Made by a program: the position numbers and the translations under genes
The notes under the pieces: model-generated
What the model was told of the DNA's origin: nothing
Seen by the model: only the letters and a program-made list of their open reading frames with translations
Databases searched by the model: none
Part shown: piece by piece, positions 125 through 56,405 of the stretch
How the letters are laid out: every line of letters begins with the position of its first letter
How positions within the stretch are numbered: the stretch's first letter is position 1
Source: Cellulosimicrobium cellulans
Lineage (GTDB): Bacteria > Actinomycetota > Actinomycetes > Actinomycetales > Cellulomonadaceae
NCBI RefSeq assembly: GCF_016921195.1
Contig: NZ_JAFGYF010000009.1
Coordinates: 1 to 64,000, forward strand
Direction of reading: 5' to 3'
DNA length: 64,000 nucleotides

Positions 125-220
125 GACCAGGGTTCTACCTCGTGTGACCAGGGTTCTATCTCGCGTGGCCGCAGTTCTACTTCGACCGACCAGGGTTCTA
201 TCTCGCGTGGCCGCGGTCCC
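125..220 (-). repeat. 21-bp tandem repeat cluster, locus 1 (about 4.5 units)
   Basis: Units start at 125, 146, 167, 188 and 209, an exact 21-bp period. The core is GACCAGGGTTCTACCTCG on the plus strand; the third unit has diverged (GGCCGCAGTTCTACTTCG). On the minus strand, the sense strand of the acyl-CoA ligase gene, the core reads CGAGGTAGAACCCTGGTC. The cluster begins about 25 bases after that gene's stop. The same unit recurs at 33.9, 43.5, 44.05 and 56.3 kb. Confidence 0.9.
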
Positions 221-243
221 CTGGGGGCGGGGGGGCGGGGCGG

Positions 244-2028
244 TCAGGCGCAGTGGTGCTCGACGTCGTCGCGACCGAGGAGGTCCTCGCGGACGACGCG
301 GCGCAGGACCTTGCCGATCTGGGAGCGCGGCAGCTCCGGCACGACGGCGAGGGTGCGCGGCAGGGCGTAGCGGGCGAGGCGCTTCTCGCCCCACTCGCGC
401 ACGGCGGCGAGGTCGACGCGTGGCGGCGAGGCGGCGTCGTCCGTGTCGTCGAGCACGACGACGGCGGCGACGTGCTCGTCCGAGCCGCTGCCCGGCACGC
501 CCACGACGGCGACGTCCCGGACGCCCGGCATCGCGCGCAGGTGGTCCTCCACCTGGGACGGGTACACCTTGAACCCGCCCGTGACGATCATCTCCTTGAT
601 GCGGTCGACGAGCGTGACGAGGCCGGCGTCGGGACCGTCGAGCGCGACGCGCACGACGTCGCCGGTGCGCAGCCAGCCGTCGTCGAGCAGCTGGTGCGCG
701 GTCTCCTCGGGCCGGTTCCAGTAGCCGCGGAACACCTGCGGGCCGCGCACGAGCAGCTCCCCGCGCACGGTGCGCGCGCCGTCGTCGGACGGCTCGGCGT
801 CGCGGAGCGCGCCCGCGTCGAGCGCGTCCGCGTCGACGACGCGGATGTCCGTGCTGGGGAAGGGCAGCCCGAGGGTTCCGGGCCTCCGGTCGTCGGAGCA
901 CGGGTTGCCGAGCGAGATCGGCGACGTCTCGGTCATGCCGTAGCCCTCGATGAGCAGCCCGCCGGTGGCGTCCTCCCAGCGCTGCGCGGTCTCGGCGGTG
1001 ATGGGCATGGCGCCCGCGAACGCGAGGCGGATCGAGGTGAGGTCGGAGCCCGCCCCGGGCGCGTCCGCGGCGGCGGTGACGATGCGGTCGAACATGGGCG
1101 CGACACCCGGGAGGAACGTGGCGGGACGGCGCGCCTGCGCGGCGACGAACGCCTGCGGGTCGAACTTGGGGAACGCGACGAGCGTCGCGCCGATGCGCGC
1201 GGGCAGCGTGAGGCAGAACGTCAACCCGAACGCGTGGAAGAAGGGCAGCACGCCGTAGACCGTCTCGGCGCCCTCGGCGAAGCCCGCCCAGGCCTGGCCC
1301 TGCACGACGTTCGCGACGAGGTTGCGGTGCGTCAGCACGGCACCCTTGGGCGTGCCCGTGGTGCCGCCGGTGTACTGCAGGAGCGCGACGTCGTCGGCCC
1401 CCGGGTGGGGGAGCGCCGGCGGGAGGGCTCGGGCGCGCCGGACGAGGTCGTGCCAGTCGGGCACGCCGGCGGGGACGCGGCCGCGCAGCGCGTCGCGCTG
1501 GGCCCGCGCGCGGGCCACGGGCAGGCGGAGCGCGAGGCGGCTCCCGCGGGGCAGGTCGCGCGCGATGTCGAGCCCGACGACGGAGCGCAGGCCGGTCGCG
1601 TGCGCGCGGGCCTCGAGCACGGCGGGGACGGTCTTGGTCCACACCACGGCGACGCTCGCGCCGGAGTCGGCGAGCTGGTGGGCGAGCTCGTCGGCGGTGT
1701 ACGTGGGGTTGTGCTCGACGACGACCGCGCCGAGGCGCTGGACGGCGTAGAACGCGACGACGTGCGACGTGCCGTTGGGCAGCACGAGCGCGACGCGGTC
1801 GCCGCGGCGCACGCCCAGGTCGTGCAGGGCGCTCGCGGCACGCTCGACCTGCGCGACGAGCCGGGCGTAGGTCGTGGTCGCGCCGAAGAAGTCGACCGCG
1901 ACGCGGTCCGGCCAGCGCTCGGCAGCGCGGTAGAGGGCGGCCGTGACCGGCTCGTCGGGGACCTCGACGTCCGTCGGGACGCCGGGGGCGTAACGGCCGG
2001 TCCACGGCCTCGTCGCCAGAGTGTTCAC
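244..2028 (-). CDS. Long-chain fatty acid-CoA ligase (AMP-forming)
   Basis: ANL-superfamily adenylating enzyme of 594 residues, the usual length for FadD-type ligases. It would activate fatty acids to acyl-CoA using ATP in the cytoplasm. Visible motifs in order are the P-loop-like TGGTTGTPKGAVLTH, the GYGMTETSP motif, the hinge region ending in GDVV, DRIKEMIVTGGFKVYPS, and the C-terminal catalytic lysine in IGKVLRR. The frame stays open upstream, but homology begins at the GTG at 2028 (VNTLATRPW); upstream codons overlap the phosphotransferase gene and do not look conserved. A near-perfect palindrome lies 12 bases upstream, so repression by a TetR-type fatty-acid regulator is plausible. The substrate chain length is not readable from sequence. 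Confidence 0.93.
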   Translation of the reverse strand: MNTLATRPWTGRYAPGVPTDVEVPDEPVTAALYRAAERWPDRVAVDFFGATTTYARLVAQVERAASALHDLGVRRGDRVALVLPNGTSHVVAFYAVQRLGAVVVEHNPTYTADELAHQLADSGASVAVVWTKTVPAVLEARAHATGLRSVVGLDIARDLPRGSRLALRLPVARARAQRDALRGRVPAGVPDWHDLVRRARALPPALPHPGADDVALLQYTGGTTGTPKGAVLTHRNLVANVVQGQAWAGFAEGAETVYGVLPFFHAFGLTFCLTLPARIGATLVAFPKFDPQAFVAAQARRPATFLPGVAPMFDRIVTAAADAPGAGSDLTSIRLAFAGAMPITAETAQRWEDATGGLLIEGYGMTETSPISLGNPCSDDRRPGTLGLPFPSTDIRVVDADALDAGALRDAEPSDDGARTVRGELLVRGPQVFRGYWNRPEETAHQLLDDGWLRTGDVVRVALDGPDAGLVTLVDRIKEMIVTGGFKVYPSQVEDHLRAMPGVRDVAVVGVPGSGSDEHVAAVVVLDDTDDAASPPRVDLAAVREWGEKRLARYALPRTLAVVPELPRSQIGKVLRRVVREDLLGRDDVEHHCA

Positions 2029-2039
2029 TACGCCACCGT

Positions 2040-2059
2040 AACCTACGGTTGCGTAGGTT
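2040..2059. promoter_or_regulatory. Palindromic operator upstream of the acyl-CoA ligase gene
   Basis: AACCTACGGTTGCGTAGGTT is a perfect inverted repeat with 7-base arms (AACCTAC / GTAGGTT) and a 6-base spacer. It lies 12 bases upstream of the GTG start, so a bound protein would block transcription or initiation. Palindromes of this kind precede fatty-acid genes controlled by TetR regulators in actinobacteria. No regulator gene is adjacent, so the binding protein is unknown. Confidence 0.6.
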
Positions 2060-2155
2060 CTGTGCGACCCGGGTGCCGAGCCCGGAGAGCCGCGGCAGCG
2101 GACGTCGCCCGCGACGCGGCGGGTCACGCACGGGCAGGCGCCGCCTGCGGAGTCG

Positions 2156-3058: not shown

Positions 3059-3073
3059 GCGCGCCCACTGTAC

Positions 3074-4570: not shown

Positions 4571-4652
4571 GGGTGCGCCTCCCCGGCGTCGACGACAGGT
4601 CCGTCCATTGAACCGGTCCCGCGCCCACGTCGCGCGGCGGGAGGTGCCTCGG

Positions 4653-16388: not shown

Positions 16389-17552
16389 ATGGACGCGACG
16401 CACGACGCGCAGGGCAGGCGCGCACCAGCCGCCCGTCGCTGGTTGGTGCGTGCGCTCGTCGCCGGTGGCGGTCTCGGCGCCGGTCTCGCGTTCGCCGTCG
16501 CGACCGCGGGCGGCGCGTCCGCCGCGGACGACCCGCTCGGTCTCGGCAAGGCCCTGTCTCCCGTGACCTCGACGGTCCAGACCGTCGTCGACCCGGTCGT
16601 GCAGGACGTCGTCAAGCCCGTCGTGCGCGATGTCGTCGGCCCCGTCGTCCAGCCGGTCGCCCCGGTCGTCGAGAAGGTCGTGACCCCCGCCGCTCCCGCG
16701 GTCGAGGAGGCCGTGCGGCCCGTCGCCCCGGTGGTGGAGCAGGTGGTCGAGCCGGTCGCTCCCGTGGTCGAGCAGGTCGTCGCGCCCGTCGAGCCCGTGG
16801 TGCAGCCCGTGACCGACGCCGTCGCACCCGTGACCACGCCGGTCCTCGACGCGGTCGTGCCGGCCGCGACGCCGGTCGTCGAGGCGGTCGCTCCCGTCGT
16901 GAATCCCGTGCTCGAGACCGCGGCGCCGGCACTCGACCCGGTCACGCCCGTCCTGGAGGCGCTCACCCCGGTCCTCGACGTGCTGGCGCCGGTCACCGAC
17001 CCGGTGCTCGGTCCCGTCACGGGGCCGCTCGCGCCGCTGGACCCGCTCGCGCCCGTGCTCCCGGAGACGCCCGCGACGGGCCCGGAGGCTCCGGGCCCGG
17101 CCGGCCCGGCGGAGCAGGGAGGCTCCGTACCGAGCGCTCCGGACCTCGGCCAGGCGGCTCCGCCGGCGGCGCTCCCGACGGTCGGCGCGCTGCTGCCCGC
17201 ACCGGCGTCCGGTGCGGACCGAGCGGGCCCGACGGCATCGGTCGGCGCCCGGTCCGGCGTGCCGCACCCGGGGCTCGACGGCGCGGTCAGCCTCGCCGCG
17301 GTCGACGCCTCGCCGGGTACGGTCGCGCCGCCGGGCGGTAGCGCGACGCCCGACGGCGTCCCCGCCGACGGCGGCCTCGGCACCACGCCCGCGCCCTCCG
17401 GCAGCGCCCAGCGCGCCGGGTCGGGCGGCGACCTCGCGGCGGTCGGCCACGGCGCCGACACCCCCGCGCTCTCGTCCTGGACCGCCGTCGTCGACGATGC
17501 TCGGTCGAAGCACCCCTCGACGTTCTTCGAGGTCCCCGTCTCTCCTGCCTGA
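16389..17552 (+). CDS. Secreted Pro-Val repeat protein, 387 aa
   Basis: Begins with a long signal peptide (RRWLVRALVAGGG to GGASAADDPLG, cleavage near residue 46). Residues about 55-235 are a seven-residue-period low-complexity repeat of the form PVV-x-x-VV (VVEQVVEPVAPVVEQVV is typical). The remainder is Gly/Ala/Pro-rich and carries no wall-anchor motif. There are no Cys residues in the mature part. A surface or extracellular structural role is likely. It precedes the chaplin-like gene by 84 bases on the same strand and probably shares its context. Confidence 0.8.
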   Translation: MDATHDAQGRRAPAARRWLVRALVAGGGLGAGLAFAVATAGGASAADDPLGLGKALSPVTSTVQTVVDPVVQDVVKPVVRDVVGPVVQPVAPVVEKVVTPAAPAVEEAVRPVAPVVEQVVEPVAPVVEQVVAPVEPVVQPVTDAVAPVTTPVLDAVVPAATPVVEAVAPVVNPVLETAAPALDPVTPVLEALTPVLDVLAPVTDPVLGPVTGPLAPLDPLAPVLPETPATGPEAPGPAGPAEQGGSVPSAPDLGQAAPPAALPTVGALLPAPASGADRAGPTASVGARSGVPHPGLDGAVSLAAVDASPGTVAPPGGSATPDGVPADGGLGTTPAPSGSAQRAGSGGDLAAVGHGADTPALSSWTAVVDDARSKHPSTFFEVPVSPA

Positions 17553-17636
17553 GGTGGTCCGCCGCCGCGCGTCGCGCGGCAGACGCGACCCGGCGCCGTC
17601 GTGCGCCACCACTTCTGAGCAGGAAAGAGAACGATC

Positions 17637-19100
17637 ATGCACACCTTCGTTCGGCGCGCGCTGCGCACAGCGCTCGTCACAGGCGGCCTCGTGGTCGTCG
17701 GGGCCGGAGCGGCCCACGCAGCCGAGGGCGACCTCCTCGGCGACCTCGGGCTGGACGTGTCGGTCGAGGCTCCGCTGAGCCAGGTGACCGAGGTCCTGCC
17801 CGACGTGTCGGTGGACGTGCCCGTGCACGTCCCCGTGACCGTGTCCGACGTCGCGGTGGGCGTTCTCGGCGACGCGACCGTGACCTCGCCCCCGGCGCCG
17901 GCCGCCGAGCCGGAGCCCGCGCCCGCTCCGGAGCCCGCCCCGGCGGGTCCGGCGGACATCGACGTGGACGTGCCGGTGACGGTCCCCGTGGACGTGTCGG
18001 GCGTCGCCGTCGGCGTCCTGGGTGACGCCGCCGTGGCACCGGCCGCAGCCCCGGAACCGGCGCCCGCACCTGCACCGGCTCCCGCCCCCGCGGGCGCGGC
18101 GGACGTCGACGTCGACGTGCCGGTGACGGTCCCCGTGGACGTGTCCGGCGTCGCGGTGGGCGTCCTGGGCGACGCCGCGGTCACGCCGGCCCCGGTGGTT
18201 CCTCCGGCCCCCGCCCACGGTGCCTCGGACGGCGCCGACGGCGGCACGGCCGGGTCCGGCCCCGACGTGGACGTCGACGCGCCGGTGACGGTCCCCGTGA
18301 ACGTCTCGGGTGTCGCGGTCGGGATCGGCGGCGACGCGACGGTCGGGGGTAGCACCGGCGGCGGAGCGGGCTCCGACGGCTCGGGTCTGCTCGACGGCGT
18401 CCTGGGCGACGGCGGGCTCGTAGCCGACCTGCTCGGCGACGGTGTCCTGGGCGACGGGCTGCTCGACGGCGCGCTCGGCGGCGACGGCCTGCTGGGCGGC
18501 GACGGGCTGCTCGACGGTGTGCTGGGCGACGACGGCGTGCTCGGCGCGCTGCCGGACCTCGACGTCGATCTGCCGGTGACGGTCCCCGTCACGGTCTGCG
18601 GCGTGAGCGTGGGAGTTCTGGGTGACGCCTCCGCCGCGTGCCCGACGGCGGCGGTCCCGACGGACCCGACGGACCCGACCGATCCCACGGACCCGACGGA
18701 CCCCACGGACCCGACGGACCCGACGGACCCGACGGACCCCACGGACCCGACGGACCCGACGGATCCCACTGATCCCACGGACCCGACCGACCCCACGGAC
18801 CCGACCGACCCCACGGACCCCGCTGACCCGGGGACCGGGGACGGCACGGACGGCACGGTGATCCCCGTGCTCAACCCGGTCGGTGGCGGCAACGGCGGCA
18901 CGACGGCGACGGCCGTCGGGACGCCCGTCGCGGCGTCGGGCCCGACGGCCCTGGCCACGACCGGCGCGGGCGGTGACCTCGGCCTGCTCGTGATGGCCGG
19001 GCTGCTCACGCTCCTCGGCCTGGCGCTCCAGCGCTTCCGCCGGAAGTCCTGGGTCGCCGACCGCGACGCCTACGCCCCGGTCTTCGCCGACCGGAGCTGA
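17637..19100 (+). CDS. Chaplin-like repeat surface protein with LATTG anchor
   Basis: 487 residues. A signal peptide (about 1-30) precedes five repeats of the form DVDVPVTVPVDVSGVAVGVL at roughly residues 57-82, 106-132, 155-181, 209-236 and 307-336. The pattern matches the chaplin core (VPV-x-VPV-x-V-x-G-x-x-V-x-V), but only the last copy has the chaplin cysteines (VCGVSVGVLGDASAAC). A stalk of about 18 TDP triplets follows (residues 341-398). The C-terminus has LATTG (439-443), a hydrophobic span and RFRRK, a class E-type (LAxTG) sorting signal. No sortase gene lies in the window. A GGAAAG site precedes the ATG. Confidence 0.85.
   Translation: MHTFVRRALRTALVTGGLVVVGAGAAHAAEGDLLGDLGLDVSVEAPLSQVTEVLPDVSVDVPVHVPVTVSDVAVGVLGDATVTSPPAPAAEPEPAPAPEPAPAGPADIDVDVPVTVPVDVSGVAVGVLGDAAVAPAAAPEPAPAPAPAPAPAGAADVDVDVPVTVPVDVSGVAVGVLGDAAVTPAPVVPPAPAHGASDGADGGTAGSGPDVDVDAPVTVPVNVSGVAVGIGGDATVGGSTGGGAGSDGSGLLDGVLGDGGLVADLLGDGVLGDGLLDGALGGDGLLGGDGLLDGVLGDDGVLGALPDLDVDLPVTVPVTVCGVSVGVLGDASAACPTAAVPTDPTDPTDPTDPTDPTDPTDPTDPTDPTDPTDPTDPTDPTDPTDPTDPTDPTDPADPGTGDGTDGTVIPVLNPVGGGNGGTTATAVGTPVAASGPTALATTGAGGDLGLLVMAGLLTLLGLALQRFRRKSWVADRDAYAPVFADRS
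18660..18825 (+). repeat. 9-bp tandem repeat coding (Thr-Asp-Pro)n
   Basis: About 18 copies of ACGGACCCG with third-position variation (ccc/ccg, acg/acc/act), so the peptide is conserved while bases drift. It encodes the stalk of the chaplin-like surface protein. Slippage-driven length variation between strains is expected. Confidence 0.9.
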
Positions 19101-31462: not shown

Positions 31463-34400
31463 TCACGAGTACCGCACCTCCTGGCTGCGTCGGCGGATGA
31501 CGGTCATCTCGTCGCGCTGGTTCCCGGTGGGCCCGAGGTAGTTGAACGCGTAGGAGAGCTGGGCGTACCCGCCCGCGAGGTGCGTCGGCTTGAGGAGGAT
31601 GCGCGTGAGCGAGTTGTGGATGCCGCCGCGCAGCCCGGACGTCTCGGCGAGCGGGACGTCGATCGTGCGGTCGGTCGCGTGGAACATGTAGACCGTGCCC
31701 TCCGGCATGCGGTGGCTGACGATCGCACGCGCCACGACGACGCCGTTGCGGTTGTACGCCTCGATCCACTCGTTGTCCGCGACGCCGATCTTGGCGGCGT
31801 CCGCCGGGCTCATCCAGATGCCCGGACCGCCACGGGACAGCGAGAGCATGAAGAGGTTGTCCTGGTACTCCGAGTGGATGGACCACTTGTTGTGCGGGGT
31901 GAGGTACCGGACCGCGACCTCCGCGTGGCCCGCGGAGCCGGGGTAGCCGGACGGGGACGTGTCACCCACGACGGGCGAGTCGCCGAAGAGGCGGTGCATG
32001 TCCAGCGGCGGCCGGAAGATCGGCATGTGCTCGCCGAGCTCGATCATCCAGTCGTGGTCGAGGTAGAGGTGCTGGCGACCCGTCAGGGTGTGCCACGGCT
32101 TGAGCCGCTCCACGTTGACGACGAACGCCGAGTACCGGCGACCCCCGTGCTCGGAGCCGGACCACTCGGGAGACGTGATGACCGGCGTCGGGCGCGACTG
32201 CACGTCCGGGAACGTCACGCGCTTGCCCTGCTCGTCGAGCGCGAGGTCCGCGAGCCGGGTGCCGGTGCGCTGCTCGACGTGCTCGAACCCCTGCACCGCG
32301 AGCCGGCCGTTCGTCGTCCCCGAGAGCGCGAGGATCATCTCGCACGCGTGCGTGTCCCGGTCCAGGCGCGGGCGCCCGGCCGCCGGGCCGTCCTGGACGA
32401 GGCCGTTGCGACGCCCGAGGTCGGCGACCTCGGGAGCCGGCGAGAAGTGCACGCCCTTGGTGACCATGCCCGCCTTCTCGGTGAGCGGCCCGAGCGCGGC
32501 CATGCGCGCGGCGAACGCCGGGTAGTCGCGCTCGACGACGACGAGCTTCGGCATGGTCACCCCGGGCACGAGCTCGCGCTCCGTCACCGGGAGCCCGGAG
32601 TCGGTGAGCGCGCCGTGCGGGACGGCCATCTCGTCCGGGGTGTCGTGCGCGAGCGGCGCCGCGACGAGGTCCTCGCGGACGCCGAGGTGCGTCGACGCGA
32701 GCTCGGACACCTTTCCCGCGAGCGTGTGGAAGATGTCGAAGTCCGTGCGCGTCTGCCACGGCGGGTTGATCGCGGGGTTGAACGAGTGCACGAACGGGTG
32801 CATGTCCGTCGAGGACAGGTCGTGCTTCTCGTACCAGGTCGCGGCGGGGAGCACGACGTCCGAGAACAGCGTCGTCGACGTCATCCGGAAGTCGAGCGTG
32901 ACGAGCAGGTCGAGCTTGCCGCGCGGTGCCTCGTCGCGCCACGTCATCGACCGCGGGCGCCGCTCGGGACCGGACTCCGCGGCGTTGACCGCGGCGTCCG
33001 TGCCGAGCAGGTGCTGGAGGAAGTACTCGTTGCCCTTGCCCGACGAGCCGAGGATGTTCGCGCGCCACACCGTCACGACGCGCGGGAAGTTCGCCGGGTC
33101 GTCCGGGTCCTCGCACGCGAACCGGAGGTTCCCGGCCTTGAGCTCGTCGACCACGTGCTGCGCCGGGTCCTTGCCCGCCGCGCGCGCCTCGTCCACGAGG
33201 TCGAGCGGGTTGCGGTCGAACGTCGGGTAGCTCGGCATCCAGCCGCGCTGCGCCGACTCGACGAGCGTGTCCGCCGTCGTGCGCCCGGAGAACTGCCCTT
33301 GCGCGAGCGGCGACGCGAGCGCGTCCGCGGGCAGGCCGTCGTAGCGCCACTGGTCCGTCGCGAGGTACCAGAACGCGGTGCCGATCATCTGGCGCGGCGG
33401 GCGCGACCAGTCCAGGCCGCCCGCGTACTGCGCCCAGCCCGTGACGGGGCGGCACTTCTCCTGCCCCACGTAGTGCGCCCACCCGCCGCCGTTCACGCCC
33501 TGGCAGCCGGTGAGCGTCGTCAGCGCGAGCATCGCGCGGTAGATCGTGTCGGAGTGGAACCAGTGGTTCGCACCCGCGCCCATGATGATCATCGAGCGCC
33601 CGCCGGAGTCGAGCGCGTTCTGCGCGAACTCCCGACCGATCCGCTCGGCCGCAGCGGCGGGCACCCCCGTGAACCGCTCCTGCCACGCCGGCGTCGCGGG
33701 CGTCGCGTCGTCGTCGTAGCCCGCGGGCCACTCGCCGGGCAGCCCCAGCTCCGGGCGGTTCACGCCGTACTGCGCGAGCAGCAGGTCCAGCACCGTCGTG
33801 ACGAGCCGCCCGCCGACGCGCCGCGCCGGCACGCCGCGCACGACGACGCCCGCGCCGCCCAGGTGTGCGCCCGCCTCGTCGCCCGGTGCCGGGTCGAGGT
33901 CGAACCGCGGCAGCGCGACGGCGACGGTCTCGTAAGTGAGACCTGCCGAGGCAGAACCCTGGTACCGCGAGGTAGAGCCCTGGTCTGCCGAGGTAGAGCC
34001 CTGGTCGGCCGACGACGGGCGCTCGGGGACGGTGTCGCGGGTGGGGGCGGCCTGCGGGGCGCCCCAGAAGACGCCGTGGGGATCGGCGACGGAGAGCAGC
34101 GGGTCGATGTCCCCGAGGTCGAGGTTCCAGCGGCCCGCGCCGGCCTCGCCGTAGCGGTGGCCGAGGCTGCCGTTCGGGACGCGCGGCGTGCCGTCGGCAT
34201 CGAGCACGACCGTCTTGAAGCGGGCGTTCGAGGAGGAGGCGTCGTCGTCGCCGGGCCGCCCGACGCCGTCGGGCAGGTCCGCGGCGGTGAGGAACTTCCC
34301 GGGCACGTACGCCGCACCGGACCCCGGGCCGCCGTCGTGCTCGTCGAGGACGACGAGGTGGGGGAGGTCGGTGAAGCGGGCCGCGTAGTCGGCGAACTGC

Positions 34401-35398
34401 GGGGTGCGGCGCTGCGCGTAGTGCTCGGTGAGGATGACGTGGCCCATGGCCTGGGCGAGCGCGCCGTCGGTGCCCGGGTGCGGGGCGAGCCACTCGTCGG
34501 CGAACTTCGTGTTGTCCGCGTAGTCGGGCGACACGACGACGACCTTCTGGCCGCGGTAGCGGGCCTCGGTCATGAAGTGGGCGTCGGGGGTGCGGGTCAC
34601 GGGGACGTTGGAGCCCCACATGATGCAGTAGGTGGAGTTCCACCAGTCGGCGGACTCCGGGACGTCGGTCTGGTCGCCGAACACCTGCGGGGACGCGACC
34701 GGGAGGTCGGCGTACCAGTCGTAGAACGACAGCATCGTGCCGCCGAGCAGCTGGACGAACCGCGCGCCGACCCCGTGGGAGACCATCGACATCGCCGGGA
34801 TCGGGGAGAAGCCCGCGACCCGGTCGGGACCGTAGGCCTTGATGGTGTGCACGTGGGCGGCGGCGACGATCTCCGCGGCCTCGTCCCAGGTGGCGCGCAC
34901 GAGGCCGCCCTTGCCGCGCGCCGCCTTGTAGGCGCGAGAGGTCTCGGGGTCCGTCGTGACCTTGCGCCACGCGAGCACCGGGTCGCCCGTGGCGGCCCGG
35001 GCCGCGCGGTAGGCGTCGAGCAGCGCGCCGCGCACGTAGGGATAGCGCACGCGCGTGGGGGAGTAGGTGTACCAGGAGAACGCGGCCCCGCGCGGGCAGC
35101 CTCGGGGTTCGTACTCGGGGGAGTCGGGGCCGACGGAGGGGTAGTCGGTCTGCTGGGTCTCCCAGGTGATGATGCCGTCCTTGACGTAGACCTTCCAGGA
35201 GCAGGACCCGGTGCAGTTCACGCCGTGGGTGGAGCGCACGACCTTGTCGTGGGACCAGCGGTCGCGGTAGAACACGTCACCATGGCGCCCGCCGGTGAGG
35301 AACACCTGCCGCAGGTCGTCGGACACCTGGCCGCGCTTGAGGTGCTTGCCGAGCCGCAGCAGCGCGTCCTCGACCGGCCCGTCCGACGTCGTCGTCAT
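31463..35398 (-). CDS. narG: Respiratory nitrate reductase alpha subunit (catalytic, Mo-bisMGD)
   Basis: 1311 residues. The FS0 cluster ligands are visible as His58, Cys62, Cys66 (THGVNCTGSCSW) and Cys101 (YEPRGCPRG). Further conserved stretches include the molybdopterin-domain segment YCIMWGSNVPVTRTPDAHF and the late YLTPHNKWSIHSEYQDN. There is no signal peptide, as expected for the cytoplasm-facing NarG. Residues about 463-485 contain an insertion of seven-residue repeats (TSADQGS, TSADQGS, TSRYQGS) encoded by three copies of the 21-bp repeat. The insert keeps frame and lies in a variable loop region. It is the first large gene of narGHJI, preceded by an overlapping 30-codon ORF. Confidence 0.97.
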   Translation of the reverse strand: MTTTSDGPVEDALLRLGKHLKRGQVSDDLRQVFLTGGRHGDVFYRDRWSHDKVVRSTHGVNCTGSCSWKVYVKDGIITWETQQTDYPSVGPDSPEYEPRGCPRGAAFSWYTYSPTRVRYPYVRGALLDAYRAARAATGDPVLAWRKVTTDPETSRAYKAARGKGGLVRATWDEAAEIVAAAHVHTIKAYGPDRVAGFSPIPAMSMVSHGVGARFVQLLGGTMLSFYDWYADLPVASPQVFGDQTDVPESADWWNSTYCIMWGSNVPVTRTPDAHFMTEARYRGQKVVVVSPDYADNTKFADEWLAPHPGTDGALAQAMGHVILTEHYAQRRTPQFADYAARFTDLPHLVVLDEHDGGPGSGAAYVPGKFLTAADLPDGVGRPGDDDASSSNARFKTVVLDADGTPRVPNGSLGHRYGEAGAGRWNLDLGDIDPLLSVADPHGVFWGAPQAAPTRDTVPERPSSADQGSTSADQGSTSRYQGSASAGLTYETVAVALPRFDLDPAPGDEAGAHLGGAGVVVRGVPARRVGGRLVTTVLDLLLAQYGVNRPELGLPGEWPAGYDDDATPATPAWQERFTGVPAAAAERIGREFAQNALDSGGRSMIIMGAGANHWFHSDTIYRAMLALTTLTGCQGVNGGGWAHYVGQEKCRPVTGWAQYAGGLDWSRPPRQMIGTAFWYLATDQWRYDGLPADALASPLAQGQFSGRTTADTLVESAQRGWMPSYPTFDRNPLDLVDEARAAGKDPAQHVVDELKAGNLRFACEDPDDPANFPRVVTVWRANILGSSGKGNEYFLQHLLGTDAAVNAAESGPERRPRSMTWRDEAPRGKLDLLVTLDFRMTSTTLFSDVVLPAATWYEKHDLSSTDMHPFVHSFNPAINPPWQTRTDFDIFHTLAGKVSELASTHLGVREDLVAAPLAHDTPDEMAVPHGALTDSGLPVTERELVPGVTMPKLVVVERDYPAFAARMAALGPLTEKAGMVTKGVHFSPAPEVADLGRRNGLVQDGPAAGRPRLDRDTHACEMILALSGTTNGRLAVQGFEHVEQRTGTRLADLALDEQGKRVTFPDVQSRPTPVITSPEWSGSEHGGRRYSAFVVNVERLKPWHTLTGRQHLYLDHDWMIELGEHMPIFRPPLDMHRLFGDSPVVGDTSPSGYPGSAGHAEVAVRYLTPHNKWSIHSEYQDNLFMLSLSRGGPGIWMSPADAAKIGVADNEWIEAYNRNGVVVARAIVSHRMPEGTVYMFHATDRTIDVPLAETSGLRGGIHNSLTRILLKPTHLAGGYAQLSYAFNYLGPTGNQRDEMTVIRRRSQEVRYS
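33944..34006 (+). repeat. 21-bp tandem repeats inside narG (3 units)
   Basis: Units with the core CGAGG start at 33947, 33968 and 33989, an exact 21-bp period (7 codons). On the plus strand they read CGAGGTAGAGCCCTGGTC, so they are antisense relative to the gene. They encode Ser/Thr/Gln/Gly-rich heptapeptides. The first unit has CGAGGCAGAACCCTGGTA. Confidence 0.92.
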
Positions 35399-42986: not shown

Positions 42987-43478
42987 ATGACCACGCAGGT
43001 CAGCGACGGACGTGACGAGTCGGCGGACGAGCGGTCGGACCGCAACTGGGCAGAGCTGCTCCAGGAGCTGCGCGTCATGCAGATGGGCGTGCAGATCCTC
43101 ACGGGGTTCCTGCTCACGCTGCCGTTCCAGCAGCGCTTCGGCGACCTCGACGCGTTCCAGATCGGCGTCTACCTCACCCTGGTGGCGCTCGCCGTGCTGT
43201 CCACCGGTCTGTTCGTCACGCCCGTGAGCCTGCACCGCGCGCTTTTCCGCAAGCACCGCAAGACGGCGCTCGTCACGATGAGCGACCGCATCGCCCGCGT
43301 GGGCGTGCTCGTCCTGGCGTTCGTCGTCACCGGGACGGTCCTGCTCGTGGTCGACGTCGTCGTGAACCGTACGGCAGCGCTGTGGTCGAGCGGCTGCGCG
43401 CTCGTCCTGCTCGTCGGCCTCTGGTTCCTCCTCCCGCGCCTCGTCGCCCGCACCCCGGCCTCTCCTGCGTCCACCTGA
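42987..43478 (+). CDS. DUF6328 membrane protein, 163 aa
   Basis: Matches the DUF6328 pattern: an acidic N-terminus (SADERSDRNWAELLQELRVM) followed by four hydrophobic segments (GVQILTGFLLTLPFQQRF, FQIGVYLTLVALAVLSTG, VGVLVLAFVVTGTVLLVV, CALVLLVGLWFLLPRLV). AGGGAGGACTC precedes the ATG. The family occurs in actinobacteria without known function. A cluster of three 21-bp repeats starts within 5 bases of its stop codon. Confidence 0.9.
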   Translation: MTTQVSDGRDESADERSDRNWAELLQELRVMQMGVQILTGFLLTLPFQQRFGDLDAFQIGVYLTLVALAVLSTGLFVTPVSLHRALFRKHRKTALVTMSDRIARVGVLVLAFVVTGTVLLVVDVVVNRTAALWSSGCALVLLVGLWFLLPRLVARTPASPAST

Positions 43479-43480
43479 CT

Positions 43481-43543
43481 CGCGAGGTAGAACCGCGGTC
43501 GCGCGAGGTAGAACGGTGGTCGCGCGAGGTAGAACCGTGGTCG
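43481..43543 (+). repeat. 21-bp tandem repeat cluster, locus 3 (3 units)
   Basis: Units with the core CGAGGTAGAACC start at 43483, 43504 and 43525, an exact 21-bp period, in sense orientation directly after the DUF6328 stop. It forms one flank of the structured region 43481-44105; the opposite flank (44052-44105) carries the same unit inverted. Confidence 0.93.
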
Positions 43544-43569
43544 GCACTCCGGCCCGCGTGGTCGGGTCC

Positions 43570-43684
43570 GCGGTGGGGGTGGCCTCGGATGCTCGGGGCT
43601 GCGGCGCCGTCACCTCGGTCTTTCGGCCGTGGTCTGAGGAGCGCCGCTCTGACGCCCCTTCGCATCCGAGCCCACCCCCACCGC
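43570..43684. repeat. Long hairpin, 23-bp arms with one mismatch
   Basis: The left arm at 43570-43592 begins GCGGTGGGGGTGG; its mate at 43662-43684 ends CCCACCCCCACCGC. The arms pair with one mismatch around a 69-base loop, and the inner GCGGCGC/GCGCCGC can pair further. It lies in non-coding sequence between convergent genes, with no codon bias that would indicate a gene. Confidence 0.75.
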
Positions 43685-43721
43685 TCGGCCGTCGCCCACC
43701 ATGACCTTGCCACGGGCCGAC

Positions 43722-43789
43722 CAGGTGGTCCCGGCAAGCCGAACAGGCGACCCGGCTCGTCAGACAACGGGACGAACCGAGACCACCTG
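43722..43789. repeat. Second inverted repeat in the 43.5-44.1 kb region
   Basis: CAGGTGGTC at 43722-43730 pairs with GACCACCTG at 43781-43789 around a 50-base loop. It is the weakest of the three inverted repeats in this 630-base gap. Confidence 0.5.
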
Positions 43790-43878
43790 TCCGGTGCGGT
43801 CCGGGGCGGCGGTGCGGCGTCGTCGCGCCGAGGCCGGACGCGGCAACGGGGACCGGGCCGGCGGAACGGACACCGCGG

Positions 43879-43991
43879 GCGGCCGCCCAGGTGAGTCACG
43901 ACCAGGGGGAGACGACGCCGGGCGGGGTGGGTGGTGGTGCCGCGTCGTGGCGGGCCTGGCGGGAGCCGTGAGGAACGAGCGGCGGATGGTA
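43879..43991 (+). repeat. Dispersed hairpin-type repeat, copy B
   Basis: Reverse complement of window bases 1-113 with 7 mismatches and no gaps by hand alignment. It covers the left arm and loop of the hairpin 43920-44018. The right arm at 43992-44018 lies outside the homologous block only because copy A is cut off by the window edge. Confidence 0.87.
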
Positions 43992-44018
43992 GACGCGGCA
44001 CCACCACCCACCCCGCCC
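43920..44018. repeat. Perfect 27-bp inverted repeat
   Basis: Left arm 43920-43946 (GGGCGGGGTGGGTGGTGG...) and right arm 43992-44018 (...CCACCCACCCCGCCC) match over all 27 bases, around a 45-base loop. A stem this long would be stable as RNA and could also extrude in DNA. Confidence 0.9.
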
Positions 44019-44051
44019 ACCCAACCCGACCACGCGCCGTCGAGCACAAGA

Positions 44052-44105
44052 ACCACAGTTCTACCTCGGCTGACCAGGGTTCTACCTCGGCAGATCGGGG
44101 TTCAG
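44052..44105 (-). repeat. 21-bp tandem repeat cluster, locus 4 (about 2.6 units)
   Basis: GTTC of the core GGTTCTACCTCG starts at 44058, 44079 and 44100 (21-bp period). On the minus strand, which is the narK sense strand, the units read CGAGGTAGAACC and begin within a few bases of the narK stop codon. They are inverted relative to the cluster at 43481-43543. Confidence 0.9.
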
Positions 44106-44109
44106 GGAA

Positions 44110-45354
44110 TCAGGTCGAGGCGGTGGCGCGGGCCTGGACGCCGCGACGGACGGGGCCGAGGGTGAACAGCAGGGTGAGGAGCGCGGTGAGGGCGAGGAGC
44201 GCGAAGCCGAGGCCGTAGGTGCCCTCGAGCTGGTAGACGGCGCCCATGAGGAGCGGCGGGATGAACCCGCCGAGGCCGCCCGCAGCACCCACGAGGCCGG
44301 TGACGGCGCCGACCTTCTCGACCGGCGCGACCTTGGAGACGAGCGCGAACGTCGCGCCCGACGACGCGCCGAGGCCGGCGGCGAGGCCGAGGAACGCGAT
44401 GGTCCCGACCGGCACGAGCCCGGGCTGGAACGCGACGACCGCGGCGAGCGCCGTCACGACGGCGAAGCACGCGACGGAGACGGGCACGCCGCCGAACCGG
44501 TCGGACAGCGCCCCGCCCACGGGCCGCATGACGACGGCGAGCACGACGAACCCCGCGGTGCGGGCGGCGGCGTCGGAGGCGGTGAGGTCGTAGGCGTTGA
44601 CGAGGAACGTGGGCAGGTAGACGGAGAACGCGACGAACCCGCCGAACCCGACGGCGTAGAGCCACGAGAGCTGGAGCGTCGCGGGCAGGCGGAACGTGGC
44701 CCACGTGCGGGCCCAGAAGCCGCCGGCGGGGGCGGTCGCGCGGCCGGGCGGGACGCGCAGCAGGAGCCACGACACGACGGCGAACACGGCGAGGATCGCG
44801 GCGACGAGGAGGAACGGCGCGGCGTCTCCCCACGCGTCGCGGATGCGCACGGTGGTGAACGCGGAGATCGCGGTGCCGCCCATGCCCATGCCGAAGATCC
44901 CGACGGCGGTGCCGCGGCGGGCGGGCGGGTACCAGGCGTTGACGAACGGCACGCCGACGGCGAACGCGGTGCCGCCGAGGCCGAGGAAGAACCCGCCGAC
45001 GAGCAGCGCGACGAAGTTGTCCGCGACGAGCCCGACGAAGAGCACGGGCAGGATGGTCAGTGCGCTCACGAGGGGGAACATGACGCGGGCGCCGTAGCGA
45101 TCCGTGAGCGCACCCACCGGGATGCGCCCGAGGGACCCGACGACGACGGGGACGGCGACGAGGACGGAGACTTGCACGTCCGTGAGGTCGTAGAGCTGCC
45201 CGTACGCCGCGCCCAGCGGGCTGATGAGCGCCCAGGCCCAGAAGTTCACCGCGAACCCGATGGTCGCCAGGACGAGCATGAGGGTCGGGGAGGTGGACGT
45301 CGACGTCGTCGTCGCGGCGGGTCCGGCGGCCCTGCCCGCGTCCTGCTGCGCCAT
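44110..45354 (-). CDS. narK: Nitrate/nitrite transporter (MFS, NarK family)
   Basis: 414 residues, 12 hydrophobic segments. NarK-type signature regions are present: FAVNFWAWALISPLGAAYG in TM1, VGSLGRIPVGALTDRYGARV with the Arg/Gly pattern, GLGGTAFAVGVPFVNAWYPP and GASSGATFALVSKVAPVEK (nitrate signature-like). It imports nitrate for NarG or exports nitrite. It stands 9 kb from narGHJI, with the cofactor and ANTAR genes between. The ATG at 45354 follows AGGAG. A short hairpin lies in its leader. Confidence 0.93.
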   Translation of the reverse strand: MAQQDAGRAAGPAATTTSTSTSPTLMLVLATIGFAVNFWAWALISPLGAAYGQLYDLTDVQVSVLVAVPVVVGSLGRIPVGALTDRYGARVMFPLVSALTILPVLFVGLVADNFVALLVGGFFLGLGGTAFAVGVPFVNAWYPPARRGTAVGIFGMGMGGTAISAFTTVRIRDAWGDAAPFLLVAAILAVFAVVSWLLLRVPPGRATAPAGGFWARTWATFRLPATLQLSWLYAVGFGGFVAFSVYLPTFLVNAYDLTASDAAARTAGFVVLAVVMRPVGGALSDRFGGVPVSVACFAVVTALAAVVAFQPGLVPVGTIAFLGLAAGLGASSGATFALVSKVAPVEKVGAVTGLVGAAGGLGGFIPPLLMGAVYQLEGTYGLGFALLALTALLTLLFTLGPVRRGVQARATAST

Positions 45355-45372
45355 GGCGACTCCTGGAGGGAG

Positions 45373-45390
45373 GTGCCCGTCGCCGGGCAC
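45373..45390 (-). promoter_or_regulatory. Hairpin in the narK 5' leader
   Basis: GTGCCCG and CGGGCAC form a 7-bp stem with a TCGC loop, about 20 bases upstream of the narK start and just before its ribosome binding site. It could modulate translation. The loop is four bases, so it is not the six-base loop expected for an ANTAR target. Confidence 0.4.
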
Positions 45391-45472
45391 GGGGGAGATC
45401 GTTGCGTCGAGCACCTCCACGCTAACGACGCTCCCCGCGCCGCGCGCGGGGAACCCCCCGTACCGTGGGGGC

Positions 45473-53965: not shown

Positions 53966-54822
53966 CGGACGGCCGCCGGTTCGTGCGCGGCCGGGGCGGC
54001 GTGCGCGCCCGCGGGCGCCGCCGGCGTGAGGGCCCCGAGCGTGTCGAGGACGGCCTGCGGAGTCGGGTCGCGTAGCTCGGTCACGAGGCGGCCGTCGGCG
54101 AGGAACAGGACGCGGTGCGCGTACGACGCCGCCGTCGGGTCGTGCGTGACCATCGCGACGGACTGGCCGAGGTCGTCCACCGAGGCGCGCAGGAAGCCGA
54201 GCACCTCGGCCGCGGCGCGCGAGTCGAGGTTGCCCGTCGGCTCGTCCGCGAACACGACCGCCGGCCGGGACACGAGCGCCCGCGCGCACGCGACGCGCTG
54301 CTGCTGCCCGCCCGAGAGCTCCGCCGGGCGGTGCCCGAGCCGCGGGCGCAGCCCCACGGCGTCGACCACGCGCTCGAACCACTCCCGGTCCACGGGACGC
54401 CGTGCGATCGCCAGCGGGAGCACGATGTTCTCCTCCGCGGTCAGCGTCGGGACGAGGTTGAACGACTGGAAGACGAACCCGATGCGCGTGCGCCGCAGCC
54501 GGGTCAGTCGCCGCTCGCTCATCGCGGAGACGGTCTCCCCGTCGACCACGACGGTCCCCGCGGTGGGGGAGTCCAGCCCTGCGAGGCAGTGCATGAGGGT
54601 CGACTTGCCCGACCCGGACGGGCCCATGATCGCGGTCAGGCGCCCCCGCTCGAGGTCGACGTCCACGCCGTCGAGCGCGCGGACGGTCGCCTCGCCGCGC
54701 CCGTACGTCTTCACGAGGCCGCGGGCGGTCGCGATCACGGGACGTGTCGTCGCGCCCCCCGCGATCTCGGCGGACGCGGTGGCCGTCGTCGCCGTACCGT
54801 CCGTCTCAGGTCTGCTGCTCAT
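53962..54822 (-). CDS. ABC transporter ATP-binding protein (LolD/MacB-like)
   Basis: 286 residues. Walker A GPSGSGKSTLMHCLAGLD, Q-loop FVFQSFNLVPTLTAEENI, signature LSGGQQQRVACARALV, Walker B AVVFADEPTGNLDS and switch AMVTHDPTAASYAHRV are all intact. It powers the FtsX-like permease encoded downstream with a 4-base overlap. The start at ATG 54822 follows GAAGGGGAAGGAACG; an earlier in-frame ATG at 54873 is less likely. Confidence 0.94.
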   Translation of the reverse strand: MSSRPETDGTATTATASAEIAGGATTRPVIATARGLVKTYGRGEATVRALDGVDVDLERGRLTAIMGPSGSGKSTLMHCLAGLDSPTAGTVVVDGETVSAMSERRLTRLRRTRIGFVFQSFNLVPTLTAEENIVLPLAIARRPVDREWFERVVDAVGLRPRLGHRPAELSGGQQQRVACARALVSRPAVVFADEPTGNLDSRAAAEVLGFLRASVDDLGQSVAMVTHDPTAASYAHRVLFLADGRLVTELRDPTPQAVLDTLGALTPAAPAGAHAAPAAHEPAAVR

Positions 54823-55002
54823 CGTTCCTTCCCCTTCTGCGGTCGTCGGCAGGGTCTCCCGGCCGGTCGCCACGACCCTCCCGTGGCGGCGGTCCCCCCG
54901 GCATCGGGGACCGGCCCGGACCGCCCCCTGGTCGCTGCACGGCGGCTCTCAGGGTTCTCTCAGGGGCCTTCCCCAGGGACGGGCCGGTGTAGGCTCGATG
55001 AG

Positions 55003-55093
55003 AACGACAGGGGAGCTCCTGGAGGAGCTGAGAGTGCGGACCACCGCAGACCCTCGAACCTGATCCGGTTAGCACCGGTGGAGGAAGTCGGGA
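55003..55093 (+). ncRNA. TPP riboswitch (THI element)
   Basis: The leader carries the conserved TPP elements in order: GGGGAGCTCC, CTGAGAGTGCGGACC, ACCCTCGAACCTGATCCGG and GTTAGCACCGGTGGAGGAAG. The closing stem P1 is CGAC (55005-55008) with GTCG (55087-55090). It precedes the thiamine importer by 90 bases. Thiamine pyrophosphate binding should reduce expression of the importer. Confidence 0.95.
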
Positions 55094-55183
55094 ATCTCGA
55101 TCACCTGCTCGTGCGGTCTCCCGCGCTCGTCGCGGCTCGGTCGCGCGGCCGGTGGACCCCTCCTGAACGTCCTGGGAGGACAC

Positions 55184-56284
55184 ATGCAGCGCACGACCGC
55201 CCGCACCCACCGGGCCCGGTCCCTCGCCACCGGCGCGGGGACGACCCTCGCCCTCCTCGCGCTCGCCGCGTGCGGCGGCGGCGACACGACGTCAGGCTCG
55301 GGGGGCGACGACGCGTCGTCGGACGCCGGGGGCACGGTCACGCTGGTCACCCACGACTCCTTCGCCGTGAGCGACGAGGTCCTCGCCGCGTTCGAGAAGC
55401 AGAGCGGGCTCACCGTCGAGCAGGTCGCGCCCGGAGACGGTGGTGCGCTCGTCAACCAGCTGATCCTCACGAAGGACTCGCCGCTGGGCGACGTGGTGTT
55501 CGGGATCGACAACACGTTCGCGTCGCGCGCGATCGACGAGGGTGTGCTCGCGCCCTACACGCCCGAGGACCTGTCCGACTCGGCGGCCTCGTACGCCGTC
55601 GGCGACGGCGACGAGCTCACCGCGGTCGACCTCGGCGACGTGTGCGTCAACGTCGACCACGCGTGGTTCGCCGACGCGGGGATCCCCGAGCCCGTCACGC
55701 TCGAGGACCTGGCGAAGCCGGAGTACCGGGACCTCCTCGTCGTGACCAACCCCGCGACGTCGTCCCCGGGCCTCGCGTTCCTCCTCGCGACCGTCGGGGC
55801 GTTCGGCGAGGACGGCTTCGAGGACTACTGGGCCGACCTGCGCGCCAACGGCGTGAAGGTCGTCGACGGCTGGTCGGACGCGTACTACGTCGACTTCTCC
55901 GGCTCCGAGGGTGCCGGGCCGCGCCCGCTCGTGCTGTCGTACTCGACGTCGCCCGCGTTCACGCTCACCGAGGACGGCTCGGCGTCCACGACCGGCGCGC
56001 TGCTCGACACGTGCTTCCGCCAGGTCGAGTACGCGGGCGTGCTCGCGAACGCGAAGAACCCCGAGGGCGCGCAGCAGCTCCTCGACTTCCTCGTGAGCGA
56101 GGCGTTCCAGGCCGACGTGCCCGAGCAGATGTACATGTACCCCGCCGACGACTCCGTCGCGCTGCCCGACGGTTGGGCCGAGTTCGCGCCGCTCGCCGAC
56201 GAGCCCTTCGAGGTCGCGCCCGCCGACATCGCGGCGCATCGCGACGAGTGGATCAAGGCATGGACGGCGACGGTCGTCGACTGA
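55184..56284 (+). CDS. thiB: Thiamine ABC transporter substrate-binding lipoprotein
   Basis: 366 residues, lipobox LAAC (Cys30), then a periplasmic-binding fold: TLVTHDSFAVSDEVLAAFEK, SPLGDVVFGIDNTFASRA, VCVNVDHAWFADAGIPEPV and GARGPR-like segment SEGAGPRPLVLSYSTSPAF. It matches thiamine-binding ThiB proteins. It is preceded by a TPP riboswitch and followed by the permease and ATPase genes, so the assignment is secure at the system level. AGGAC precedes the ATG. Confidence 0.93.
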   Translation: MQRTTARTHRARSLATGAGTTLALLALAACGGGDTTSGSGGDDASSDAGGTVTLVTHDSFAVSDEVLAAFEKQSGLTVEQVAPGDGGALVNQLILTKDSPLGDVVFGIDNTFASRAIDEGVLAPYTPEDLSDSAASYAVGDGDELTAVDLGDVCVNVDHAWFADAGIPEPVTLEDLAKPEYRDLLVVTNPATSSPGLAFLLATVGAFGEDGFEDYWADLRANGVKVVDGWSDAYYVDFSGSEGAGPRPLVLSYSTSPAFTLTEDGSASTTGALLDTCFRQVEYAGVLANAKNPEGAQQLLDFLVSEAFQADVPEQMYMYPADDSVALPDGWAEFAPLADEPFEVAPADIAAHRDEWIKAWTATVVD

Positions 56285-56330
56285 CGCCCGTCGCCGGTCC
56301 GCTGGCGGGCATGACCACGCCTCTACCTCG

Positions 56331-56405
56331 CGAGGTAGAACCGTGGTCGCGCGGGGTAGAACCGTGGTCGCGCGGGGTAGAACCGTGGTCGCGCGAGGTA
56401 GAGCC
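56331..56405 (+). repeat. 21-bp tandem repeat cluster, locus 5 (4 units)
   Basis: CGAGGTAGAACC or CGGGGTAGAACC cores start at 56331, 56352, 56373 and 56394 (exact 21-bp period). It lies between the thiB stop and the thiP start, in sense orientation. The last unit (CGAGGTAGAGCC) ends directly at the GTG of thiP and supplies its Shine-Dalgarno-like GAGGT. Just upstream, TCTACCTCG abuts CGAGGTAGA as a 9-bp inverted half-unit. Confidence 0.93.

Follow-up and report, generated by a model that had tools for sequence, protein, structure and literature searches.

Facing arrays of a 21-bp unit at gene 3′ ends in Cellulosimicrobium: a probable palindromic repeat system without RAYT

What is the 21-bp repeat that recurs in five clusters along this stretch of Cellulosimicrobium DNA, and why is it found where genes end? 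In the window (the whole stretch analysed, 64,000 nucleotides, beginning at base 1 of its contig), the first-pass annotation had described a dispersed tandem family that is linked to gene 3′ ends, reads in the direction of the upstream gene and, its unit being a multiple of three, can also sit inside genes. The dispersed family, the gene 3′ ends and the in-frame fit in genes all stood in our analysis, and the direction rule did not. The arrays that face each other are probably a palindromic repeat system without RAYT that makes hairpins at mRNA 3′ ends; its mover and its function are only putative.

In the window, a scan with CGAGGTAGAACCSTGGTC (up to 3 mismatches) found 16 units, where shuffles predict 0.08. 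TRF placed 21-bp arrays at 120-209, 33945-34012, 43481-43543, 44058-44103 and 56329-56410, and both methods agree on the five clusters as originally located (Table 1). Rather than being confined to these five sites in random orientation, the unit has 453 matches in the whole Cellulosimicrobium genome (219 forward and 234 reverse, up to 2 mismatches), as against 0 + 0 for the reversed-pattern control. It is present in 16 of 17 Cellulosimicrobium genomes, in numbers ranging from 0 to 453, and we found no named family for it. In the detailed sample of the source genome (859,496 bases, of which 498 kb contiguous and the remainder picked around listed matches), neighbouring units are spaced exactly 21 bp apart in 298 of 318 cases and arrays hold 1 to 8 units, the counts being confined to arrays in which at least one unit has no more than 2 mismatches. 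The bases GAGGTAG, CC and GGTC of the unit are highly conserved, and the consensus differs at a few positions between species. Genes were called by our own codon-usage script, trained on the source genome and retrained for the second genus (g8, below), and not by a published caller; calls scoring below 25 were left out of the gene-position counts in both, and a further count left out repeated sequences and calls scoring below 15.

Table 1. Repeat elements and hairpins in the window
Feature	Position	Strand	Description
Truncated hairpin B	1..72	+	Cut by contig end; conserved loop 1-45, one stem arm 46-72; loop pattern match at 1-37
21-bp array, 4 units	125..205	-	Reads towards contig end; 38 bases past stop of gene 244-2028 (-)
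21-bp array, 3 units	33944..34006	+	Intragenic, within gene 31463-35398 (-)
Left facing array, 3 units	43481..43543	+	4 bases past stop of gene 42987-43478 (+)
Core flanked by facing arrays	43543..44050	.	Dispersed repeat in the genus
Hairpin A	43570..43684	.	Stem 23 bp (96% complementary), loop 69 nt
Hairpin B	43920..44018	-	Perfect 27-bp stem, conserved 45-nt loop with small apical stem
Second dispersed repeat	44024..44050	-	CTTGTGCTCGACGGCG type at 44035-44050; core edge adjoining right array
Right facing array, 2 clear units and degenerate third	44051..44105	-	20 bases past stop of gene 44110-45420 (-)
Single opposite unit	56313..56330	-	Head to head with array at 56331; overlooked in the first-pass annotation
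21-bp array, 4 units	56331..56411	+	Between tandem genes 55184-56284 (+) and 56451-58121 (+); 46 bases past first stop

The four intergenic arrays of the window start close behind stop codons in our own gene calls, as had been proposed. Of 70 sites in the detailed sample, partly chosen for good units because part of the sample was picked around listed matches, 26 lie in convergent gaps, 25 in tandem gaps, 2 in divergent gaps and 8 within genes, with 9 at sequence edges left unclassed. Background gene pairs over the 498 contiguous kb were 251 tandem, 82 convergent and 82 divergent; against the latter two, 26 convergent versus 2 divergent sites (one-sided P 1.5e-6) bear out the placement at gene 3′ ends. 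Direction is another matter, as the units in tandem gaps read with transcription 74 times and against it 81 times (P 0.63), and the one-direction sites there are split 4 to 4. Thus the core does not read with the upstream gene as a rule, and the same tandem-gap counts rule out a strand-specific 3′-end signal. The apparent orientation arises because opposite arrays mostly face each other, left on the plus strand and right on the minus strand. In fact, neighbouring arrays less than 1.2 kb apart were ordered '+-' in 40 cases, '-+' in 4 and '--' in 3 (facing order 40 versus 4, P 2e-8), with separations from touching up to about 1.1 kb. The common form of the element is therefore two facing tandem arrays, which either nearly touch and make a long palindrome or enclose a core; arrays in one direction also exist.

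The expectation that a 21-bp unit can lie in frame inside genes also held, six of the eight intragenic arrays sharing one phase. Five of the eight, all within these six, encode DQGSTS-type repeats along the whole array. The intragenic array of the window encodes DQGSTSA DQGSTSR YQGSASA in frame on the gene strand, and the corresponding place was compared in 12 related genomes.

Folded as RNA, two whole compact elements gave very stable hairpins, at -74.5 kcal/mol (z -12.2) and -108.4 kcal/mol (z -13.7), whereas an array in one direction gained nothing over its shuffles (z 0.30) and the element at 56313-56411 gained little (z -2.3). In the compact pairs (n=18), units opposite each other differ at 2.63 of 18 bases versus 3.55 with shuffled partners, and 0 of 5000 shuffles came as low; variants are thus mirrored between the arms. 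Pairs with a core (n=22) have no mirrored variation (3.02 versus 3.02, P 0.51). Longer pairs can enclose hairpins in which the loop is conserved and the stems vary in sequence. In the window, hairpin B carries on the minus strand the loop motif TACCATCCG..CGTTCCTC..CTCCCGCCAGG and folds with z -6.2, and 44024-44036 is complementary to 43555-43567. The core hairpins matched no Rfam 15 family at gathering score; at E up to 5 the sole matches of the core were to miRNA models, on G-rich stems and well short of the gathering scores. The only Rfam 15 match at gathering score in the window is a TPP riboswitch, outside the core. Scanning the one region 43300-44300, we found no canonical promoter or terminator and no U-tract terminator.

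Orthologous core hairpins tend to retain their pairing. At one locus the stem was unchanged in 72 of 72 cells and at another 6 cells were doubly compensatory; broken pairing was met in 11 cells at a further locus, 5 at another and 2 at a third. An insertion appears to shift one row at the locus with 11 broken cells. A cross-pairing control reaches 18/18 for at least one combination of different hairpins, a consequence of relatedness among some of the stems. The unchanged and compensatory stems would speak more for selected pairing than for a snap-back origin of the variable stems, a preference weakened by the 11 broken cells. Over the 17 genomes, the copy numbers of unit and loop hairpin rise together (rho 0.87). 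Of 77 loops, 22 fell at sequence edges and were left unclassed.

Between relatives, unit numbers differ at most compared sites, and in orthologous gene gaps unit numbers, the core and whole elements all vary by gain, loss and growth. At the orthologous site in G012 the core at 43543-44050 is missing, and the facing arrays there are compact. At the window's own site, 4 of the 12 compared genomes have no unit at all, and in one gap an ordinary hairpin kept in 4 of 5 genomes adjoins the array site (both read by eye); the arrays are thus not needed as terminator there. Occupied and empty sites, compared by eye, gave no clean outer boundary and no clear target duplication, the flanks being too diverged for a firm reading. 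Units differ by 2.92 bases between sites of the same genome, by 3.77 at the same site in other genomes and by 3.85 when both genome and site differ (pair counts are not independent, and the seven sites were delimited by hand), while adjacent units differ by 2.40 bases versus 3.39 between units from different arrays. Units are homogenised within genomes and not inherited by site.

A second genus of the same family, g8, shows a comparable layout with a 20-bp unit of unrelated sequence, the spacing being 20 bp in 122 of 137 cases. Its arrays avoid genes, and their order is 8 '+-', 3 '-+' and 4 same-direction neighbours (P 0.23, not significant alone). This sample of 500 kb comprised stretches of which all from G135 and half from G141 were picked around listed matches; arrays were identified by position and period, a unit being kept if a neighbour lay at 19-21 bp and an array if it held more than one unit. 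The reversed control of the 20-bp unit search matches too (188 and 189 in G141; 102 and 133 in G135), presumably because the 20-bp core GCGASTCAGCGC is nearly palindromic, so that match counts overstate the contrast. As the 20-bp unit matches once at most in 15 of 18 g8 genomes, and no intergenic 20-22-bp array appeared in 100 kb of G167, 40 kb of G161 or 100 kb of G173, this layout is not shared by the whole family. A 20-bp period means that the period is not set by codons. Perhaps, two or more genera of this family share a composite element made of facing arrays of 20-21-bp units and of hairpins with conserved loop and varying stem, with the sequences of unit and loop exchanged completely from one lineage to the next. 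If this is true, which we put forward tentatively, a general class could explain the bacterial 20-21-nt tandem repeats: a machine that gauges two DNA turns, copies its unit, homogenises it across a genome and leaves hairpins at gene ends.

With a probability of roughly one half, the 21-bp unit makes up an interspersed repeat element that is palindromic and non-autonomous, tolerated at gene ends and forming mRNA 3′-end hairpins when transcribed. Arrays would expand as units are duplicated locally, in direct or inverted orientation, and copies would spread and be homogenised through copying, be it gene conversion or a putative enzyme. The elements may survive in intergenic gaps and past gene ends because insertions that hit a promoter, or a gene out of frame, are lost. 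Once transcribed, facing arrays and core hairpins would form long stems, protecting mRNA 3′ ends or setting where they lie, in line with proposals for REP/BIME. As to the source of the elements, a RAYT/REP origin was rejected for the absence of the Y1/RAYT transposase domain PF01797 from all 17 genomes of the genus (5 of 14 control genomes were positive), and a plasmid or phage source was rejected, as 43480-44105 has no match in plasmid and phage collections at E 1e-5. An autonomous transposon was likewise discarded; gene calls lie inside 3 of the 40 facing pairs, and their four proteins matched DUF2510, DUF6847, ChaB or nothing above curated Pfam cut-offs.

Other explanations account for part of the same observations. 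We regard as doubtful, albeit the strongest competitor, a DNA-binding protein that would polymerise on the arrays or bridge facing ones (nucleoid organisation, supercoiling or insulation of convergent transcription), sitting on one face of the helix with the unit making two helical turns. Such a protein would suit the strict spacing in both genera, the lack of a strand preference relative to transcription, and the conserved bases with their few species-specific changes, which resemble a site coevolving with its binder; a binding site, however, does not need the mirrored variation of compact pairs, and unit numbers down to 0 in the genus make any such role dispensable. It should be noted that the strong conservation of the unit exceeds what a pure hairpin needs and counts against the hairpin explanation. 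Slippage without function is unlikely: a 21-bp unit that arose by chance, was amplified through replication slippage and template switching and was kept where harmless would fit the greater likeness of neighbouring units, the unit numbers varying between genomes, the avoidance of divergent gaps and, for the 20-bp version, of genes. Alone, it leaves unexplained the hundreds of dispersed copies, the genome-wide homogenisation, the facing order and the similar g8 layout with an unrelated unit.

The ends of Tn7- and Mu-like transposons carry multiple transposase sites, and the inward-facing multiple sites around a core that comes and goes at one site recall them. That the arrays are such ends, or a MITE of a known family, would nonetheless be very improbable, considering arrays of 1 to 8 units, compact pairs without core, no fixed outer end or clear target duplication seen by eye at the compared sites with their diverged flanks, and gene calls within the pairs that do not resemble transposases. 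Selected bidirectional transcription terminators seem to us equally improbable; the excess in convergent gaps and the very stable hairpins of the two folded compact pairs would be expected of them, yet some relatives lack arrays in orthologous gaps, one site adjoins an ordinary, conserved hairpin, and 2 of the 70 sites lie in divergent gaps and 8 inside genes. Finally, 17 of the 46 contig ends of the source draft genome fall in or within about 60 bases of a core hairpin loop, which might recall a vector or assembly artefact. This is already refuted by units in G004 and G007 (1 contig each) and G012 (2 contigs), and in frame inside genes. The palindromic element tolerated at gene ends remains our preferred reading.

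Tandem repeats of 20-21 nt have been reported from many bacteria and are described as unexplained in PMC8161180. Their anatomy is now visible in two genera with unrelated sequences, as facing arrays, 3′-end placement and loop-conserved hairpins, homogenisation having been tested in one genus. The core hairpin may account for fragmented draft assemblies, and the arrays offer a variable-number marker.

Mycobacterial MIRU, to which the repeat had at first been likened, are tandem intergenic repeats near stop and start codons, with units longer than 21 bp. We know of no facing-array or hairpin layout for MIRU, and this parallel seems weak; REP/BIME, the Rickettsia palindromic elements and the repeats of Subirana and Messeguer are closer. 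REP/BIME (PMC3733652) are high-copy palindromic repeats found mainly downstream of genes, paired or grouped and in some cases intragenic, of 20-40 bp, ending in GTAG and linked to RAYT. The 21-bp arrays share with them the high copy number, the location downstream of genes and the occurrence in pairs or groups. Unlike REP, the unit is a 21-mer with a direction, repeats in strict tandem, holds GTAG inside rather than at its end, becomes a palindrome by facing arrays, and occurs in a genus with Y1/RAYT in 0 of 17 genomes. The Rickettsia palindromic elements are described in PMC2229807 as stem-loops of 105-146 bp lying both between genes and in frame within protein genes. The in-frame presence in protein genes is common to both, whereas here heptapeptide-coding tandem 21-mers occur, alone or with a hairpin, in a different phylum. 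As for the repeats of Subirana and Messeguer, the main text of PMC8161180 describes bacterial tandem repeats of constant size (20-21 nt) and variable sequence, Actinobacteria included, mostly non-coding, in species-specific families of unknown function for which a nucleoid protein or small RNAs were suggested; that main text does not contain palindrom-, hairpin, convergent or intergenic, and has inverted once, in the introduction. Our arrays resemble them in the fixed period without sequence conservation across lineages (21 bp here and an unrelated 20 bp in g8, two lineages), in being mostly non-coding (8 of 70 sites intragenic) and in a consensus that differs between some genomes. They depart from the main-text description in that Cellulosimicrobium arrays mostly face each other, are placed at gene 3′ ends, can surround hairpins with a conserved loop and have their units homogenised within each genome.

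The five clusters of a 21-bp unit listed by the first-pass annotation are all present in the window in a 21-bp register, where a scan allowing up to 3 mismatches finds 16 units (0.08 expected), and what that list had overlooked is a single unit in the opposite orientation. That the unit is dispersed is borne out by the window's genome (the draft G000), in which it has 453 matches when up to 2 mismatches are allowed, versus 0 for the reversed pattern. The core hairpin loop described below lies at 17 of the draft's 46 contig ends, and the true copy number is therefore uncertain. The unit was matched in 16 of 17 genomes of the genus (3 to 453 copies; 0 in one). Outside it, a two-unit pattern at up to 3 mismatches was found in 3 of 203 other family genomes, with one or two matches apiece. 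Exact two-unit copies were confined to Cellulosimicrobium in a named genome collection that may omit records closely related to the window's genome, all six stretches belonging to C. funkei, C. marinum or one Cellulosimicrobium MAG.

Features of the window and of related sequences (G, genome; C, contig; L, sampled stretch; g8, a second genus of the same family)
Feature	Location	Description
Core between facing arrays	43543-44050	508 bp; dispersed repeat; contains two long hairpins
Opposite single unit	56313-56330	
Core hairpin loop at contig end	1-45	
Intragenic array	33947	DQGSTSA-type repeats, whole array
Intragenic array	C18:70744	DQGSTSA-type repeats, whole array
Intragenic arrays	L071, L078, L079	DQGSTSA-type repeats, whole array
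Intragenic array	L072	DQGSTSA-type repeats in first two units
Orthologous stem locus 1		6 double compensatory cells, 5 broken
Orthologous stem locus 2		unchanged in 72 cells
Orthologous stem locus 3		11 broken cells, 1 one-sided
Orthologous stem locus 4		1 double cell
Orthologous stem locus 5		2 broken cells
Orthologous stem locus 6		unchanged in 24 cells
TPP riboswitch	54999-55103 (+)	RF00059, 64.8 bits; upstream of gene 55184-56284
Near-perfect palindrome, GCCGAGCAC..GTTGCTGTCGT type	62040-62098; G000:C18:74120-74178	both intergenic
Low-complexity tandem repeats	16575-18820	many, 9 to 147 bp, period mostly a codon multiple; in the called genes 16446-17552 (+) and 17637-19100 (+)
Diverged hairpin loop, CTCGTCCCTCGCGGC..TCCTGCCAGGCCCAG	L265:13224-13330 (G135:C1:1693224)	g8; relative of the Cellulosimicrobium loop
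Compact palindrome of Cellulosimicrobium-like units, CGAGGTAGTACC	L256:6859-6927 (G135:C1:3106859)	g8; elsewhere the host has the 20-bp unit
Further dispersed palindrome, CGAGCGTCTCTGAA(A)GTC type	e.g. L252:7686-7748, L221:11283-11339	g8; G135 and G141

The 859,496 sampled bases of G000, window included, contain 114 arrays with 1 to 8 units each, and 298 of the 318 unit spacings measure 21 bp. Where two neighbouring arrays are separated by under 1.2 kb, 40 pairs run + then -, 3 run - then -, and 4 run - then +, these last always consisting of one unit directly against an array. Thirty-four arrays are unpaired, for some of which the reason is a position inside genes or at contig ends. The 40 facing pairs overlap once and are separated by 2-4 bp in 14 cases, so that the compact form is a palindrome with up to 4 units per arm; the remaining gaps reach 1,087 bp, and since gene calls fall in three of the longest (762, 888 and 1,087 bp), some long pairs may be two neighbouring sites. 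The predicted RNA folds of two compact elements have energies of -74.5 kcal/mol (z -12.2) and -108.4 kcal/mol (z -13.7), and a one-direction array gains no stability over its shuffles (z 0.30). The GCCGAGCAC..GTTGCTGTCGT palindrome is possibly a further dispersed palindrome family.

With genes called by a codon-usage script, the 70 sites are 26 convergent, 25 tandem, 2 divergent, 8 intragenic and 9 at sequence edges, against a background of 82 convergent, 251 tandem and 82 divergent gene pairs in 498 kb of contiguous sequence. The contrast of 26 convergent to 2 divergent sites is strong (one-sided P 1.5e-6). Thus the proposed link to gene 3' ends is real, yet it is without strand specificity: the claim that the unit reads with the upstream gene fails in tandem gaps, where 74 units share its direction and 81 oppose it (P 0.63). 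The impression of a strand rule arose in the window from facing arrays between convergent genes, where each array runs in the direction of the gene next to it. Inside genes, 6 of 8 arrays share a common gene-strand phase, and five of these six encode DQGSTSA-type peptide repeats along the entire array.

A query of the convergent gene pair of the window with its core gave between 20 and 123 matches in each genome; among the matches listed the lower-ranked ones mostly hit arrays and core. The second core hairpin has a perfect 27-bp stem and a 45-nt loop, whose pattern occurs in 33 copies in the window's genome versus 0 for the reversed control. Of 221 family genomes 23 carry the loop pattern, spread over 4 of 25 genera; of 396 genomes sampled from the order 5 do, three of them being of the same family. 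The diverged loop in G135 indicates that the loop family is wider than this exact pattern. At gathering score the core hairpins match no Rfam family. Fourteen hairpins differ in their loop-proximal stems; the two arms of one hairpin pair at a mean of 16.1 of 18 positions, and arms taken from different hairpins at 9.1, although in three of the 14 the count is no higher than 14 and the best combination across hairpins attains 18. The first 24 stem pairs were also compared at six orthologous loci (Table). Seventy-seven loops, orthologues counted separately, comprise 20 convergent, 2 divergent, 8 within gene calls and 22 at edges, and in tandem gaps 16 lie with the motif strand and 9 against it.

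Copy numbers of unit and loop correlate over 17 genomes (rho 0.87). By eye in twelve genomes, the convergent site of the window carries arrays and core in G000, G008 and G010, compact arrays without core in G012, degenerate units in G005, G014, G004 and G002, and no units in G009, G015, G003 and G016. At the intragenic site of the window, likewise inspected in 12 relatives, the units sit in the same linker: in seven relatives it has roughly two to four of them, in part degenerate, in G012, G016 and G015 a hairpin together with one to three, and in G009 and G003 no unit. In a comparison of five colinear stretches, each roughly 100 kb long, many shared gaps are occupied, with differing unit numbers and the core present or absent; in one gap, by eye, the full element of G012 adjoins an ordinary hairpin common to 4 of 5 genomes, and G007 apparently keeps one degenerate unit. 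Mean unit differences are 3.77 at the same site in another genome, 3.85 for unrelated pairs and 2.92 at other sites of the same genome. Units are thus more alike within a genome than at a shared site, which argues that the family turns over within genomes.

A comparable layout built from unrelated sequences occurs in g8. A 20-bp unit (GCGASTCAGCGC plus 8 nt) gave 554 and 425 tandem matches in G141 and G135, counts for which the reversed control is also high, 25 in G146, and 0 or 1 in the other 15 genomes examined. Within 500 kb of G135 and G141, of which 400 kb were chosen around matches, 21 sites are 10 convergent, 10 tandem, 1 divergent and 0 intragenic (background 73 convergent, 252 tandem, 71 divergent); 20 is not divisible by three, which fits the unit's absence from genes. 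Of 137 spacings 122 measure 20 bp, and neighbouring arrays run +- in 8, -+ in 3 and in the same direction in 4. Six hairpins in these stretches are built on a separate conserved loop of 38-39 nt, with stems that differ in part. Three other sampled genomes were without such a layout.

The evidence best supports reading the family as a non-autonomous palindromic repeat that is either tolerated at gene ends or put to use there, and whose facing elements would fold into long stems once transcribed. Compact arms carry mirrored variants, which supports pairing, whereas arms flanking a core do not. The main rival is a DNA-binding protein occupying the units, to which the strict period and the conserved unit bases point. 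An enzyme that would copy the repeat did not emerge: there was no RAYT in the 17 genomes, no match to the element in plasmid and phage collections, and no transposase among the four gene calls enclosed by facing pairs.

The matches listed in a literature search held no description of the Cellulosimicrobium elements, which is weak evidence as open-licence papers alone were covered, and passages of a paper on prokaryote satellites (PMC6749651) add nothing on 20-21-nt units. The nearest published class is the constant-size 20-21-nt tandem repeats of Subirana and Messeguer, to which no function is assigned there (PMC8161180). The nearest functional parallels are REP/RAYT (PMC3733652) and the Rickettsia palindromic elements (PMC2229807).
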